A DNA stretch of 20,699 bases, taken from positions 1-20,699 of IMG/VR virus record IMGVR_UViG_3300024999_000466; one strand, 5' to 3'. A model generated the notes under the pieces. The model was not told the DNA's origin, searched no databases, and saw only the letters and a program-made list of their open reading frames with translations. Of this stretch, positions 4,716 to 15,392 are shown one piece after another. Every line of letters begins with the position of its first letter. Position 1 is the first letter of the stretch. The stretch comes from a virus. A program made the position numbers and the translations under genes.

Positions 4716-5213
4716 TTACTTCCGTCCGTTTGATTCACACACGACCACGAGCGGTGCTTTCCAGGTGTCCCAGAACCGCCGCGACCTCGTTCCGTCCATC
4801 TGCGCTATTCGCTCATTGTCGAAATTCCACCAATCCACCAGGCTGTGAAACTCGCAGCCTATTTTCATGTGCGCGTCAAAAATGATGACGTGGTATTCTC
4901 CGGTTTCAATTTGGATAGGGATTTTCTCAATTGTTATTTTTTCACCGTTGGCCCGGCTCAGGTCGGCCCCGCTCAGGTCGGCCCCGCTCAGGTAGGCCCG
5001 GCTCAGGTAGGCCCCGCTCAGGTCGGCCCCGCTCAGGTTGGCCCCGCTCAGGTAGGCCCCGCTCAGGTTGGCCCCGCTCAGGTCGGCCTTATTCTCAATA
5101 GCCCATCTGACGGCAAGGCCGACTTTCGCAGATATCGCATCATCCTTCTTCGCCTTGATGTTGGCGATGAACTGTACCTCTCCGGTAAACCGGTTTTTAA
5201 TCTCGTATTTCAT
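4716..5213 (-). CDS. pentapeptide-repeat protein with conserved C-terminal phage domain
   Basis: A 165-aa protein. After a 42-residue N-terminus, nine pentapeptides of the form A(D/N/Y)LS(G/R) span residues 43-88, the PF00805 right-handed beta-helix type. The C-terminal 75 residues ([39 protein letters not shown]) form a domain seen downstream of pentapeptide repeats in other phage proteins. Nine repeats give only about two turns of helix, far fewer than the gyrase-protecting Qnr/MfpA DNA mimics, so that function is not implied. The ATG overlaps the upstream gene's stop (ATGA). Role is unknown. Confidence 0.85.
4951..5085. repeat. nine tandem 15-bp repeats in the pentapeptide gene
   Basis: Nine consecutive 15-bp units close to GCCCCGCTCAGGTNG run without interruption and encode the pentapeptides on the minus strand. 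Variation between units is almost confined to one or two bases, including the codon for the variable residue, which points to recent expansion or gene conversion. The unit length keeps the frame whatever the copy number. Confidence 0.95.
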
Positions 5214-5407
5214 CTCTGTTCTCCTTTTTTATTCGTTCGTGGAACCGGCCTGTAGCGCAGTTCCGGGTAGGTAAAGTAATCAGTCTCCAGCCACCTACCG
5301 ATGTGCGCAAGCTGCGGACCGGAGTCCTTGTACTTCGGCGTTGGCTTCTCAAACAGCCACCACCATAGATCGAGGAAGATGTTCGTTTTTACTGGCTTTA
5401 ATTTCAT
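5210..5407 (-). CDS. small hypothetical protein
   Basis: A 65-aa basic protein with an aromatic cluster ([16 protein letters not shown]) near the N-terminus and a charged tail (RTNKKGEQR). It is coupled by ATGA overlap to the pentapeptide gene downstream and starts 2 nt after the upstream gene's stop codon. The tryptophan cluster is not long enough for a convincing membrane helix. No family is recognised. Confidence 0.6.
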
Positions 5408-5409
5408 TT

Positions 5410-5664
5410 TTACCGTGCCTCGTATTGATATGGTTCCGCCTCAATGTGCCCTTTGAAGATCGCGAGGACGCAATAATCTGACAGAGCGTTGTCGTCGTTA
5501 ATCAGGTAATGGCCGACGCTTGTAGAGTCCGCGTCAATCGCCTGGACCTTGCCGGCATGAGCTGCGGCCTCGACCGAGGGCTCGTCAACATGCGCGGTGA
5601 ATGTGTCATACCCGAAGTCATCTGTTGCATACTCAGGCCGCTGGATAATCACTGTGTATTTCAT
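5410..5664 (-). CDS. small hypothetical protein
   Basis: An 84-aa acidic protein beginning MKYTVIIQRPEYATDDFG, followed by an alanine-rich helix (VEAAAHAGKVQAIDAD) and a strand (CVLAIFKGHIEAE). I use the ATG at 5664 because GGAGG lies 9 nt upstream; the open 11 codons before it overlap the neighbouring gene. The MKYTVI beginning and overall plan resemble the proteins at 5669-5848 and 6282-6524, which may be distant paralogues of a small alpha/beta fold. Function is unknown. Confidence 0.7.
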   Translation of the reverse strand: MKYTVIIQRPEYATDDFGYDTFTAHVDEPSVEAAAHAGKVQAIDADSTSVGHYLINDDNALSDYCVLAIFKGHIEAEPYQYEAR

Positions 5665-5668
5665 GGCT

Positions 5669-5848
5669 TCATTCCTCCGTAGGCTCGTAGAACTCAAGCA
5701 GAGATTGAATTCTGAGTAGGTTATCGTCCAGGGCTTTGTCGGTTTTTATCCCCCAGGCGAGGATATGCGCATACTCTGTAACTTCGGTAGTTGTCCCGCC
5801 TTCTTCATCTGACTCTTCAACGATCAATGCAATTCGGTATGTTTTCAT
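5669..5848 (-). CDS. 59-aa hypothetical protein
   Basis: An ATG at 5846-5848 opens a 59-codon frame ending in TGA at 5669-5671. It starts MKTYRIALIVEESDEEGG and ends in LLRIQSLLEFYEPTEE. It fills what would otherwise be a 210-base gap in a gap-free operon, on the same strand, with a 4-nt spacer to the next gene's start, whose GGAGG lies inside its 3' end. It is acidic and alpha/beta in pattern, like its neighbour at 5410-5664. The ribosome-binding site (GAG with an A-rich spacer) is weak. Function is unknown. Confidence 0.6.
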   Translation of the reverse strand: MKTYRIALIVEESDEEGGTTTEVTEYAHILAWGIKTDKALDDNLLRIQSLLEFYEPTEE

Positions 5849-5875
5849 TTTTCTCGTAGCCTCATTGTTGTTTAA

Positions 5876-6079
5876 TCAGAGTATCATTCCGTCCAGGTCG
5901 GCACGGTCTGATTTCGCATAATGGATTTCATCATATTCCTTGTGAATCCCGACCAGGAGCGGAATCCCCGCGACAAAGCGATCAACCCATTTGTAAGTGT
6001 CGGTTTCGGCCTCGGCGCGGCTTTTGTCGGATACTTTGCTGTCCAGGCTGTAGTCGTTGCAAACGTCGTAAAGTGTCAT
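5876..6079 (-). CDS. small hypothetical protein
   Basis: A 67-aa protein starting MTLYDVCNDYSLDSKVSD and ending DLDGMIL. It is rich in acidic and aromatic residues. GGAGG lies 8 nt before the ATG, inside the end of the upstream gene, and the start overlaps that gene's stop by ATGA. No recognisable domain. A 27-nt gap separates it from the 59-aa gene. Confidence 0.65.
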   Translation of the reverse strand: MTLYDVCNDYSLDSKVSDKSRAEAETDTYKWVDRFVAGIPLLVGIHKEYDEIHYAKSDRADLDGMIL

Positions 6080-9299: not shown

Positions 9300-9328
9300 A
9301 CGATAGCATACCGTCGCGCTTATTGCAA
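9300..9328 (-). promoter_or_regulatory. putative promoter for the leftward operon
   Basis: Read leftward: TTGCAA (complement of 9323-9328), a 17-nt spacer and TATCGT (complement of 9300-9305), preceded by TGC to give an extended -10. Each hexamer matches the sigma70 consensus at four of six positions. Predicted start near 9293, leaving a leader of about 90 nt. Confidence 0.55.
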
Positions 9329-9362
9329 TGCGGAAAGTAAATAAGGTATTTTCACATTTCCT

Positions 9363-9392
9363 TTGACAATCGGTAAATCCATCGCCTACAAT
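9363..9392 (+). promoter_or_regulatory. sigma70-type promoter for the packaging/head genes
   Basis: TTGACA (9363-9368), an 18-nt spacer and TACAAT (9387-9392) form a near-consensus promoter about 50 nt upstream of the small terminase start. It points away from the leftward promoter, 35 bp apart, so this is a divergent control region. The whole 9266-9440 stretch has no supportable gene. Confidence 0.75.
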
Positions 9393-9444
9393 GACCGCAG
9401 ATATAAGCATTTAAGCAAGCACCCCTGAGAAAATAGGTGAAGGT

Positions 9445-10224
9445 TTGAAAAAGTTGCCTAAGTTGCCGGAATTAACCAATAAACCTAAAAAGAAAATAGT
9501 TTGTAATAAGGTAAAAGCCAGCGATGTGGACTGGGAAGAGGTGACTTACCAGGTCAGGGAAACAGGCGAACCGCTTAGTTCAATTGCCCGAAATCACGGG
9601 ATAAATGAAAATACGCTCTGCCACTGGATTAAACGTGAGGGAATTGTCAGGGATCTCAGGAAGCGCATTAAGGCCCAGACAGACGACGAACTTTCCAGAA
9701 TCGTGCGCCACGAGCAGGTCCAGGACGAGCGCCTCCCCCTCAAGAAAAAGACCGACAAGGATCGAGTCTCAGCTCTCGCAAAGGTCCGCGCCACCATCAT
9801 CTTAAGCCATCGCAAGGACATCAAAGCCCATCGGCGATCCCTAACCAAAATGCAAAGGGAGCTGGAGACCGGCAGCGATTTTGTGGGCGATATTGCCGTA
9901 CTGGTGCGCAAAGTGGTGGATGGTGGCAAGACCGACGCCGCTTCCGTCAAGGAACTGCAACAAATCCTCCGCCGCCTGGGCGATCTGGGCAACCGTGCGG
10001 ATATACTCAGAAAACTTTCAGACACGCTCAAAACTCTGATTGCCCTTGAGCGTCAGGCGTTTGACCTAGATGAGCCCGCCCCCGGCACGGTAAATGACGG
10101 AGATAGCGTAGAAATCACCCTCCAGAACGTGTACCAGGCGATCAGCGGGCGCAGCAGGGGATTACCTGGTCGCCCGATCACCCCGGCCCCTCCCCTCGAA
10201 TTGGACGTTGAAAAGGTGGAGTAA
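9445..10224 (+). CDS. terminase small subunit-like protein
   Basis: A 259-aa protein that would recognise phage DNA ends for packaging. Residues about 33-64 form a helix-turn-helix (GEPLSSIARNHGINENTLCH, then WIKREG) as in many small terminases, flanked by a basic N-terminal tail (KPKKK). The rest is long charged helix (about 70-210), suited to oligomerisation. The start is TTG with AGGTGAAGG just upstream; no in-frame ATG lies nearby. The assignment rests on the HTH, the helical body and its position before the large terminase. An oppositely oriented gene separates the two, which is unusual. Confidence 0.65.
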   Translation: MKKLPKLPELTNKPKKKIVCNKVKASDVDWEEVTYQVRETGEPLSSIARNHGINENTLCHWIKREGIVRDLRKRIKAQTDDELSRIVRHEQVQDERLPLKKKTDKDRVSALAKVRATIILSHRKDIKAHRRSLTKMQRELETGSDFVGDIAVLVRKVVDGGKTDAASVKELQQILRRLGDLGNRADILRKLSDTLKTLIALERQAFDLDEPAPGTVNDGDSVEITLQNVYQAISGRSRGLPGRPITPAPPLELDVEKVE

Positions 10225-10323
10225 CTATATGATATCATTCAGCAACCCAGACTTCTTTACATAATAGATCTTATGCGACATTATGATATATCCACGGTTT
10301 GCGGGCAGGTGATTACAGGCCCC

Positions 10324-10509
10324 CTATTTCTTGCCCAGCTCGGAAAACGAGGAAAGCAAGTTAAACAAGATACTTACGCACTTTGGGACAGCAGCCCTAC
10401 CCCTCACCCAATTGTTCACAGTTTTGGGCGACACCTCAAGCAGCCTGGCAAGCCGTCGCTGAGACCAGTTCAACCCTTTCAATGCAGCCTTCAGCCCCTT
10501 TCCGTCCAT
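10324..10509 (-). CDS. Xre/Cro-type helix-turn-helix regulator
   Basis: A 61-aa single-domain DNA-binding protein. NWSQRRLARLLEVSPKTVNN (about 14-33) is a textbook HTH: helix 2 SQRRLARLLE and recognition helix SPKTVNNWVRG. GGAGGA lies 5 nt before the ATG, and a near-perfect promoter lies 40 nt further up. The gene faces against all flanking genes and sits between small and large terminase. Small Cro-like proteins usually dimerise on palindromic operators and often repress their own promoter. A plausible operator is the AGAAG/CTTCT inverted repeat at 10527-10544. It may control head gene expression or be a moron; target unknown. Confidence 0.85.
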   Translation of the reverse strand: MDGKGLKAALKGLNWSQRRLARLLEVSPKTVNNWVRGRAAVPKCVSILFNLLSSFSELGKK

Positions 10510-10526
10510 ATTTCCTCCTGTAATGT

Positions 10527-10544
10527 AGAAGATAATGCGCTTCT
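10527..10544. promoter_or_regulatory. possible operator at the regulator's transcription start
   Basis: AGAAG (10527-10531) and CTTCT (10540-10544) are inverted with an 8-nt gap and cover the predicted transcription start and early leader of the Xre-type gene. Size and symmetry suit a small HTH dimer. The arms are short, so chance occurrence is possible. Confidence 0.3.
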
Positions 10545-10548
10545 CAAG

Positions 10549-10577
10549 AGTATATCCCTTTCTTCCACTTCTGTCAA
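10549..10577 (-). promoter_or_regulatory. strong sigma70 promoter for the Xre-type gene
   Basis: Read leftward: TTGACA (complement of 10572-10577), exactly 17 nt, then TATACT (complement of 10549-10554). The -35 is perfect, the -10 has five of six. It lies just before the large terminase start (10599), so its transcription diverges from terL. Confidence 0.8.
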
Positions 10578-10598
10578 TTCCAGGGCAGGCAGACCCTC

Positions 10599-12335
10599 AT
10601 GAACATACACAGCGAAGAGGGCAAGGCCACCCTCGCCCAGGTCAAGCTCACCATGGCCCAGGACCGCGAGCAGCGCCAGATCGAGGACGAAGAGAAGGAA
10701 GACAAGCGGCTGGAGCGCGAGCAGGCGCGAGAGATGAAGGAGCGGGAAAGGGATTCCTTACTCGCCGCCGAAGACCCAGGGGGGGGTGCGCTCAGGAGGA
10801 TGTGGGCTTCGCTCGACGATAGGGAATGGAGACTCGACAATCTTTACACGATAAAAGATAAGTTCGGACGCCTTATCCCCTTTATTCGGAATGATTCCCA
10901 GTTAAAGTTCTGGAAGGCGATGTGGTATCTGAACATTATCCTGAAGGACCGGCAAAGGGGCTTTTCGACATTAATAGCTATCTTTATTTTCGATTATTGC
11001 TTTTGGAACGGGCATGTAGAGGCGGGCATCATTGATATTACCTTGCCTGACGCCAGAAAAAAATTAGATAAAATCAAGCTGGCCTACGACCATTTGCATC
11101 CGGTTATCCAGGCTTTGAACCCGATGACGGAGCGTGCCAAGGAATCGGTGAAATTCAAGAACGGCTCGACGATTTACATCGGGACCTCGCATCGTGGCGG
11201 CACCCTGGAGATCCTTCACGTCTCTGAATTGGGAAAGATAGCTGCTCGTAACCCTGAAAGGGCCCGAGAGATCAGGACTGGCGCCTTGAACACGATTGCA
11301 CAGGGTAATATTATCATTGTGGAATCGACCGCGGAGGGAACTTCCGGCGAGTTTCACGACGATTGTAAAGCAGCAGAGAACAAGCTGCTCGAAGGGGCGA
11401 AGATGACGCCTCTGGATTTCAAGTTCCACTTCTTCCCCTGGTGGGAGGGTTCGGAGAACGAGCTTGACCCTGATGGTGTAAGGATTACTGAAGAGTATGA
11501 GCGGTACTTTAAGGAAATAGAAGACGAAATTAAAGTATCACTTTCACTGCGGAAACGGGCATGGTACGTTAAAAAGGCCGAGCAGCAGAAGGATGACATG
11601 CACCGGGAGTTTCCCTCGACCCCGGATGAGGCGTTTCAAGCCTCTATGGAAGGCGCGATCCTGGCGAAACAGATGCGTGTCTTACGGAAGGAACGAAGGA
11701 TTACTATCGTCCCTCATGATCATGGGTACCCGGTAAATACTGGTTGGGATTTTGGTATCAGCGACAAGATGACAATCTGGTTCCATCAGCGGGTTGGTTT
11801 TCAGGATCGGGTTATCGATTATCTGGAGGGGACGGATGACGATGTGGTGGAATACTGGATGCGGATCCAGAAGTTACCCTACAATTACGGGCGCCATTTC
11901 CTGCCGCACGATGCGGGCTCCAAGCGAATTGGCACCGCCACGAAGGGGGATGCGAAGCCGAAGACGTTGAAGCAGATCCTTTCGGCGGCGGGGATGCGGA
12001 ATATCTGTGTTGTCCCCCGAGTTTTGCGGAAAGGCACGGCGATCCAGGAAGTGAAGGTCTGGCTGCCCTCCGTTTTCATCGATAAAGAGAAATGCGCCGT
12101 CGGGATCAATCATTTGCAGAATTTCCGGGTTGATTGGGACGATAAGCTCGGCTGCTGGAAGGAGACGCCGCGGCATGACGACGCTTCGCATGGCTATGAC
12201 GGGTTCGAGACCCTTACCCGGGGTCTTGGAATGTTTGGAGTTCGCTTGAATATGGAGGCTGAGATGCAGATGAGGTCCGGTTCTGAAACCCCGAAACCGA
12301 AACGAAGGCGCTCTTCTGACTGGAGGACGGCATGA
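10599..12335 (+). CDS. terL: terminase large subunit
   Basis: A 578-aa packaging motor: ATPase that pumps DNA into the prohead and nuclease that cuts concatemers. ATPase domain: Walker A-like DRQRGFSTL at 117-125, Walker B ending at Glu210 (LHVSE), coupling motif VESTAEG at 241-247. RNase H-like nuclease domain: Asp384 in GWDFG, Asp438 in PHDAG and Asp527/528 in RHDDASHGYDG are the probable metal ligands. The first 60 residues form an extra, highly charged coiled coil ahead of the usual N-terminal segment (WRLDNLYTIKDKFGRL at 77-92), with a G8 run (10779-10786) where it joins. The ATG at 10599 has only a weak ribosome site. It overlaps the portal gene by ATGA. Confidence 0.92.
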   Translation: MNIHSEEGKATLAQVKLTMAQDREQRQIEDEEKEDKRLEREQAREMKERERDSLLAAEDPGGGALRRMWASLDDREWRLDNLYTIKDKFGRLIPFIRNDSQLKFWKAMWYLNIILKDRQRGFSTLIAIFIFDYCFWNGHVEAGIIDITLPDARKKLDKIKLAYDHLHPVIQALNPMTERAKESVKFKNGSTIYIGTSHRGGTLEILHVSELGKIAARNPERAREIRTGALNTIAQGNIIIVESTAEGTSGEFHDDCKAAENKLLEGAKMTPLDFKFHFFPWWEGSENELDPDGVRITEEYERYFKEIEDEIKVSLSLRKRAWYVKKAEQQKDDMHREFPSTPDEAFQASMEGAILAKQMRVLRKERRITIVPHDHGYPVNTGWDFGISDKMTIWFHQRVGFQDRVIDYLEGTDDDVVEYWMRIQKLPYNYGRHFLPHDAGSKRIGTATKGDAKPKTLKQILSAAGMRNICVVPRVLRKGTAIQEVKVWLPSVFIDKEKCAVGINHLQNFRVDWDDKLGCWKETPRHDDASHGYDGFETLTRGLGMFGVRLNMEAEMQMRSGSETPKPKRRRSSDWRTA

Positions 12336-14545: not shown

Positions 14546-14657
14546 GAGATACAGCACTTTACTGGTGGCGATATTCACCCTTGGCCTTGATATTGACCAG
14601 GTAAAACGAGGCCTCAAGCGAGTTGAAAAATACAGGCTGTGTCGGGCAGGGTTATAG
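14538..14657 (+). CDS. 39-aa ORF after the portal
   Basis: A short frame starting ATG at 14538, 8 nt inside the end of the portal gene, with a strong GGAGG upstream. It encodes MVKRYSTLLVAIFTLGLDID and a basic tail ending RVEKYRLCRAGL. The C-terminal codons for LKRVEKYR lie in one copy of a direct repeat whose other copy (15111-15134) encodes LKRVERYR beyond the methyltransferase. It may be an original gene end displaced by the inserted methyltransferase. Small size limits certainty. Confidence 0.45.
   Translation: MVKRYSTLLVAIFTLGLDIDQVKRGLKRVEKYRLCRAGL
14612..14635 (+). repeat. direct repeat, left copy, flanking the methyltransferase
   Basis: CCTCAAGCGAGTTGA followed by AAAATACAG matches 15111-15134 at 22 of 24 positions. 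Both copies are read in the same direction and both would encode LKRVE(K/R)YR. The two copies are 499 bp apart and enclose the adenine methyltransferase gene. Confidence 0.85.
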
Positions 14658-14676
14658 GGCATGGCGGAGAGTATCA

Positions 14677-15105
14677 TTGGCAGATTTAACGAAAGAACGA
14701 TTTGATGCAAAAAGCGTGGAGTATGAAACGCCGTGGACGCTTTTCGATCCGCTGCATAATGAATTTAATTTCACCATGGACGTATGCGCCACGCATGAAA
14801 ACAAGAAAGTAGAGAAATGTTTTACGATAGCTGAAGATGGATTAAAGCAGGATTGGCAAGGCGTGTGCTGGTGTAACCCCCCGTATGGCCGGGAAATGCC
14901 GAAATGGATAACCAAGGCCCACCAGGCAGCGCAAATGGGGAAGGCTACAACAGTGATGCTGATTCCGGCCAGGACAAATACGGCATGGTGGCATGATATC
15001 TGTATGAAGGGAGAAATAAGATTTTTGCGGGGGCGCCCGAAATTTAACAATGGCAAGCACGGTCTGCCGTACCCGCTGGCACTGGTAATTTTTCGTGCCT
15101 CGTAG
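14677..15105 (+). CDS. dam: phage DNA N6-adenine methyltransferase (Dam-type, PF05869)
   Basis: A 142-aa protein of the phage N-6-adenine methyltransferase family, which transfers methyl from S-adenosylmethionine to adenine N6, typically in GATC. Visible motifs: the substrate-specific EYETPWTLFD and FTMDVCATHENKKVEKCF start, catalytic NPPYG at 67-71, and LIPARTNTAWWHD, RFLRGRPKF and LVIFR. I use the TTG at 14677 (GGCGGAGAG 7 nt upstream); the frame is open to 14623 but that part lies in the flanking repeat. Known roles are protection from restriction and control of packaging or early genes. It is bracketed by direct repeats and looks like an inserted cassette. Confidence 0.88.
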   Translation: MADLTKERFDAKSVEYETPWTLFDPLHNEFNFTMDVCATHENKKVEKCFTIAEDGLKQDWQGVCWCNPPYGREMPKWITKAHQAAQMGKATTVMLIPARTNTAWWHDICMKGEIRFLRGRPKFNNGKHGLPYPLALVIFRAS

Positions 15106-15110
15106 CAGTA

Positions 15111-15134
15111 CCTCAAGCGAGTTGAGAGATACAG
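15111..15134 (+). repeat. direct repeat, right copy, flanking the methyltransferase
   Basis: Second copy of the 24-bp repeat, CCTCAAGCGAGTTGA then GAGATACAG, 5 nt after the methyltransferase stop. A related shorter piece, GTTAAGAGATACAG, is found at 14541-14554 at the start of the 39-aa ORF. Confidence 0.85.
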
Positions 15135-15158
15135 AAGATCTACCAAAAGGAGCAGTCT

Positions 15159-15392
15159 ATGAAAATAACCGTTGAACTCGGGCATGTCGGAGACAGGGAA
15201 CAGAGGATATCAATCGGCGACGAGAAAGAGGGGAAGGTTTTCGTCCAGGGCGAGATAGAGTTTCTGCTCGATGGGCTCGAACCAGTAAGGCTAACCGCCG
15301 GAGAGGTTCTTGAAAGTTTAGTATTCATGAAGAGGGCGAAAAGTCTCAATGATTATTTCGTCGCTCTAAATGATAAAATGAACGGCCAATAG
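15159..15392 (+). CDS. hypothetical protein in the accessory block
   Basis: A 77-aa protein starting MKITVELGHVGDREQRISIG, with GGAG 7 nt before the ATG. A beta-rich first half (KVFVQGEIEFLLDGLEPVRL) is followed by a helix (GEVLESLVFMKRAKSLNDYF). No family is recognised. It lies between the methyltransferase and the exported fibre-like gene. Small proteins at this place in related phages are often head accessory proteins, but nothing here shows that. Confidence 0.65.
   Translation: MKITVELGHVGDREQRISIGDEKEGKVFVQGEIEFLLDGLEPVRLTAGEVLESLVFMKRAKSLNDYFVALNDKMNGQ

Follow-up and report, generated by a model that had tools for sequence, protein, structure and literature searches.

A small Xre-family regulator gene on the opposite strand between terS and terL of an IMG/VR virus, and its counterparts in several phage genera

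Separation of the small and large terminase subunit genes, terS and terL, has been noted for Bcep22-like phages in the available part of one study (PMC9144972). In Lessievirus the interval between them is variable; it holds 15 ORFs in CSP3, where the accessible text of the description calls it "rather unusual" without explanation (PMC10269572), and a short antisense helix-turn-helix (HTH) gene within the interval goes unremarked in these portions of the literature. Lastavirus is lytic, phage UHKP being described in the excerpt available as free of lysogeny genes, with terS as ORF 9 and terL as ORF 11 (PMC12989515), and for the temperate-like lessieviruses the corresponding sections give the relatives JC1 and CSP3 a separate repressor (PMC9144972, PMC10269572). 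It is therefore unlikely that an HTH gene at the terminase border is the lysogeny repressor in either group. The available parts of a treatment of small-terminase mosaicism do not mention such a gene (PMC10386132), nor is it discussed in those of the announcement of Serratia phage Parlo (PMC6606913) or of PMC5679790. No title on an antisense HTH gene at the terS-terL border was found in the literature covered, a scope outside which the founding Bcep22/BcepIL02 paper lies, and the arrangement apparently has gone undiscussed.

The window, meaning the whole stretch of 20,699 nucleotides analysed here, is a new case of this arrangement, which is already present, and mostly annotated, in several genera. 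The two terminase genes are separated by a single HTH gene on the opposite strand, giving the order terS-HTH(opposite)-terL. The relevant features are listed below, L003 and L004 being sister contigs of the window.

9363 to 9392, plus strand: promoter-like site 5' of terS, TTGACA-18-TACAAT, 11/12 match (L003 copy at 4784)
9445 to 10224, plus strand: terminase small subunit gene terS (phrog_1206, E 1.3e-26)
10225 to 10310, no strand: A+T-rich spacer (38% GC) from the terS stop to the cassette; L003 has a nearly identical one
10311 to 10590, no strand: replaceable cassette of promoter and HTH gene; flanks align to L003/L004, segment without DNA match there
10324 to 10509, minus strand: Xre-type (HTH_3) regulator gene, 61 aa, with ATG start, Pfam HTH_3 and PHROG matches and a strong Shine-Dalgarno sequence
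10527 to 10544, no strand: weak inverted repeat AGAAG-N8-CTTCT, at chance level, sole copy in the window
10549 to 10577, minus strand: sigma-70 type promoter of the HTH gene, TTGACA-17-TATACT, 11/12 match
10599 to 12335, plus strand: terminase large subunit gene terL (phrog_2, E 1.5e-24; phrog_2472, E 2.2e-65)

The preliminary description had placed an HTH gene on the strand opposite terS and terL, and this is borne out. The protein scores 31.8 bits against Pfam HTH_3 (E 1.5e-7), above the cut-off of 23, and the sequence AGGAGG stands a few bases 5' of its ATG. Its best PHROG is phrog_4779, a transcriptional regulator (E 9.9e-9, 52/98 positions), and the other PHROGs that it matches also belong to the transcription-regulator class. 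The match to phrog_6962, to which the Lastavirus HTH belongs, is too weak to count as homology (E 0.0065), and BLASTP gives no alignment to LASTA gp25. Against BcepIL02 gp38, 16/34 residues are identical over an aligned stretch of only 34 residues, and the protein of contig L119 matches at 36% over 53 residues. Judged by these matches and the shared best PHROG, the window protein appears closest to the Lessievirus HTH type. No close kin were found in the viral contigs searched, where one weak match covered 19 residues (L002), or in the genome contigs; a plasmid search gave two weak matches, and the one viewed had no annotated terminase in view. Matches in phages ppBeUSDA76-2, MseS-P1, NrS-4 and all-k141 were dropped as lying outside a terminase context. 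An AlphaFold model built from the single sequence was also set aside (mean pLDDT 67.8, pTM 0.32, helices only). Antisense to the gene runs a 109-aa open frame (10273-10602, plus strand), probably no more than its shadow, that ends in ATGA over the terL start.

The nearest described counterparts, BcepIL02 gp38, BcepMigl gp41 and the L119 protein, resemble the window gene in being short HTH_3 proteins with phrog_4779 as best family, encoded on the opposite strand between terS and terL. Lessievirus differs in that nine genes separate terS from the HTH gene and five separate the latter from TerL in BcepIL02, and in having an HTH of 72 aa, a terS of phrog_51 rather than phrog_1206 and a clear upstream palindrome. 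The window shares its layout with LASTA gp25, PEp14_0002 and a minus-strand ORF of Parlo, each a lone HTH gene in the order terS(+)-HTH(-)-terL(+) with a gap of about 100 bp to terL. The Lastavirus protein, however, belongs to phrog_6962 (tested on LASTA) and does not align with that of the window by BLASTP. Unlike in the window, the HTH and terS genes of LASTA, ZX1 and Pavtokvirus overlap at their stops, and the Lastavirus, Pavtokvirus and Parlo genes are conserved between genera rather than forming a recent cassette. Pseudomonas phage Skulduggery likewise has one HTH_3 gene, on the opposite strand, separating terS from terL (gp02, 23.3 against 23 bits), although this encodes 89 aa with little similarity to the window protein. 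As in BcepIL02, the terS genes of LASTA and Skulduggery are of phrog_51.

Eleven annotated phages were taken from a TerL search regardless of any HTH gene, and a lone short opposite-strand HTH gene lies between terS and terL in three of them (Skulduggery, LASTA and Parlo); no such gene was found in the other eight (VSN-002, PBC5, Cruim01, PseuP_222, Itty13, phiC725A, qsb1 and Atu_ph08). An HTH-based search added ZX1, SopranoGao, PEp14, Pavtok and Stean with the same gene order, and BcepIL02 and BcepMigl with the HTH gene among others in the interval. The Parlo locus (L100, 4633-4950) is annotated in GenBank as a plus-strand ORF of 105 aa, while the minus strand encodes a 72-aa HTH protein 58% identical to that of LASTA; comparison of the sequences indicates that the latter is the conserved gene and that the strand was miscalled. 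Identity to the LASTA protein is at least 58% across the Lastavirus, Pavtokvirus and Parlo proteins. Among uncultured viruses, L033 encodes a LASTA-like HTH followed by a further ORF before terL (5105-5944, resembling by eye a GIY-YIG homing endonuclease), and L109 has a LASTA-like HTH gene divergent from terL at the contig end. Searched against genome contigs, the LASTA protein gave one weak match. Two HTH_3 surveys of TerL relatives, one covering 40 of 80 loci and six phage records, the other the 72 of 80 loci with at least 700 bases upstream, each found one locus with a minus-strand HTH between terS and terL: 1/40 (L033) and 1/72 (L122, whose TerL is 99% identical to that of LASTA). By reading of ORFs, a minus-strand HTH gene lies upstream of terS instead in L026, L137, L145 and L151. 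These counts show the arrangement to be uncommon among TerL relatives at large. The earlier premise that terS and terL are normally adjacent is nonetheless too strong, as a lone opposite-strand HTH gene occupies the gap in 8/18 annotated phage records and lies amid cargo in two more, a proportion that is not a frequency since several records were picked because they matched the HTH.

The order terS-(antisense HTH)-terL is thus found in at least four named phage genera as well as in uncultured viruses, with annotation that is piecemeal and, in one genome, on the wrong strand. To these the window adds a different terS family and, with L003, a pair differing in the presence of the gene. As the window protein is closest to the Lessievirus type, does not align with that of LASTA and accompanies a terS of another PHROG, it seems more likely that the HTH gene was placed independently, or swapped in as a cassette, than that it was simply inherited.

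The proposal of a strong consensus promoter firing away from terL, toward the 3' end of terS, is upheld. On the minus strand TTGACA begins at 10577 and, after a 17-nt spacer, TATACT ends at 10549. Only two sites in the 20.7-kb window reach 11/12, this one and that at 9363 upstream of terS, against 0.08 expected from the mean of 200 dinucleotide shuffles; relative to local composition, one in 400 shuffles of the 100-bp upstream region scored as high (p 0.0025). The possible operator previously placed at the start site of the gene fared less well, because the gap between the HTH gene and terL contains one inverted repeat with 5-bp arms where 0.87 are expected, and 51% of shuffles do equally well. 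No further copy of AGAAG-N8-CTTCT occurs anywhere in the window, including the terS promoter and 9300-9400. With the candidate operator at chance level and uncopied near 9300-9400, the suggestion that the protein controls the terS promoter by binding has no support in the sequence.

The Lessievirus genomes BcepIL02, BcepMigl and L119 (contigs L119, L120 and L121) share an 18-bp palindrome, GTACAAT-N4-ATTGTAC, placed 42 nt ahead of the HTH start. Its spacer differs among the three contigs, in each of which the palindrome exceeds chance expectation (matched by 1-2% of shuffles). It is unique at up to two mismatches in both genomes searched (BcepIL02 and BcepMigl), one distant site with three mismatches being present in BcepIL02. 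This restriction to the HTH upstream region, as expected of a small repressor acting on itself, suggests local autoregulation in Lessievirus. LASTA, ZX1, Parlo, Skulduggery and L109 each have an exact TATAAT 5' of their HTH gene. In the other phages promoter scores for the region ahead of the gene are modest (p 0.04 in LASTA, 0.06 in Skulduggery, 0.09 in L109, 0.17 in L033 and 0.21 in Parlo), and no good promoter site was found 5' of the gene in Pavtokvirus (p 0.47-0.83) or Lessievirus (p 0.34-0.55). A second palindrome, ACCGC-TATAAT-GCGGT from LASTA, occurs once each in the genomes of LASTA and ZX1 and is palindromic in L109 with one compensating change; it was rejected as an operator on the grounds that its 5-bp arms alone are at chance level.

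Phage morons are single genes with their own promoter, found among late genes and absent from close relatives. The preliminary description raised the possibility that the HTH gene is a moron, to be checked by synteny in relatives, and this check comes out in its favour. L003 and L004, which are mutually identical over 11,124 bases, retain both flanks of the window, and in place of 10311-10590 carry about 261 bases of unrelated DNA with a 64-aa ORF on the plus strand, overlapping the start of terL and without a match to any Pfam or PHROGs family at the limits used. L003 thereby lacks the HTH promoter and keeps that of terS, and the HTH protein has no match in the three sister records searched whole. 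The replaced block corresponds to the promoter and the gene with little else. The window cassette shares with morons its own promoter, its single gene, its position between late genes and its absence from close relatives; it differs in that no terminator was found on the minus strand as far as 9983. Its GC content is 50.0% against 54.4%, a slight difference. From this comparison the HTH gene is a swappable, moron-like cassette. Identity between the window and L003 is complete over at least 6.4 kb (from 3121 or earlier to 9512), breaks off abruptly at 9513, inside terS (81-94%), and continues at about 94% through the late genes. As divergence starts well 5' of the cassette and is similar on either side of it, the cassette does not sit at a visible chimera joint. 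The abrupt change at 9513 may itself reflect recombination of the late arm or a chimeric assembly.

The reading that is on balance favoured is that the window gene encodes an independently expressed, probably autoregulated small Xre-family repressor and that the terS-terL gap is the cargo site which carries it. The gene would be transcribed leftward by host RNA polymerase from its own sigma-70 promoter, and the protein would most likely bind the divergent gap between the gene and terL and limit its own expression. Autoregulation is probable by analogy with the Lessievirus palindrome; the analogy with LASTA and BcepIL02 is weak, there being no BLASTP alignment to the former and one of only 34 residues to gp38. 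Any effect on the late operon would be local, with the HTH transcript running toward the 3' end of terS and the bound repressor standing in the path of transcription from terS to terL. The arrangement is real and exceeds chance, and on the sequence the mechanism is plausible; as the window and L003 form a presence/absence pair, what the gene does to terS and terL is directly testable.

A reading with a substantial though less than even chance is that the gene is ordinary cargo with a target in the host or another phage, the gap being a tolerated insertion site and the orientation functionless. The unrelated DNA filling the slot in L003, the homing endonuclease and ORF filling it in Itty13, the more than ten genes found there in BcepIL02 and BcepMigl and, in the available text on CSP3, the variability of the Lessievirus interval with its 15 ORFs (PMC10269572) all fit such a site. 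It would leave unexplained why a short opposite-strand HTH gene recurs there in at least four genera, why those of Lastavirus, Pavtokvirus and Parlo are conserved at 58% identity or more to that of LASTA, and why the Lessievirus palindrome occurs only beside the gene.

It is possible, if somewhat unlikely, that the leftward transcript acts as an antisense or interference switch, colliding or pairing with the terS transcript and holding back expression of terL and the head genes up to the point where the HTH protein silences its own promoter. The convergent geometry and the strong promoter are consistent with this. No terminator-like site was found on the minus strand between the HTH gene (10324) and 9983, so that its transcript would enter the 3' side of terS and could interfere with terS-to-terL transcription. 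In Lastavirus, Pavtokvirus and L033 the terS and HTH stops overlap tail-to-tail by four bases, and the transcripts must therefore overlap. Against this, the sister virus L003 does without the HTH gene, as do the eight other annotated TerL relatives. A broader proposal, which is unlikely, makes the terS-terL border a recurring site of regulation: small autorepressing HTH genes antisense to terS would have been placed or swapped there independently in several lineages of podoviruses, promoter and single operator forming a local switch that times read-through to terL and the genes for the head.

It is very improbable that the gene is a YdaS/Cro-like remnant or an orphan antitoxin and not a functioning regulator: the matches to HigA (E 2.1e-4) and YdaS (E 2.9e-5) fall below their curated cut-offs (21.1 against 47.7 and 24.3 against 30 bits), and the single-gene cassette has no partner toxin, although among solved chains a HigA antitoxin comes nearest (E 0.0072). 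That the ORF is spurious or an assembly artefact is barely credible, since, despite the cassette being seen in one assembly only and no other viral contig holding a close copy, the domain is above cut-off, Shine-Dalgarno sequence and promoter are in register, and the divergence from L003 begins well before the cassette and is alike on both sides.

Other differences between the window and L003 also take the form of cassettes. A block found only in the window (14636-15381) includes a Dam-type methylase gene (14623-15105), and one of about 0.7 kb is found only in L003 (11203-11936). Elsewhere in the window, the minus strand at 4716-5213 encodes a protein of pentapeptide repeats (Pfam E 6.6e-18), the underlying DNA being an array of short repeats in register. 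Among the TerL relatives, the TerL frames of L137 (1590-3947) and perhaps L194 (2476-4824) are near 785 aa in length, with an apparent intein after what we take to be the ATPase motif.
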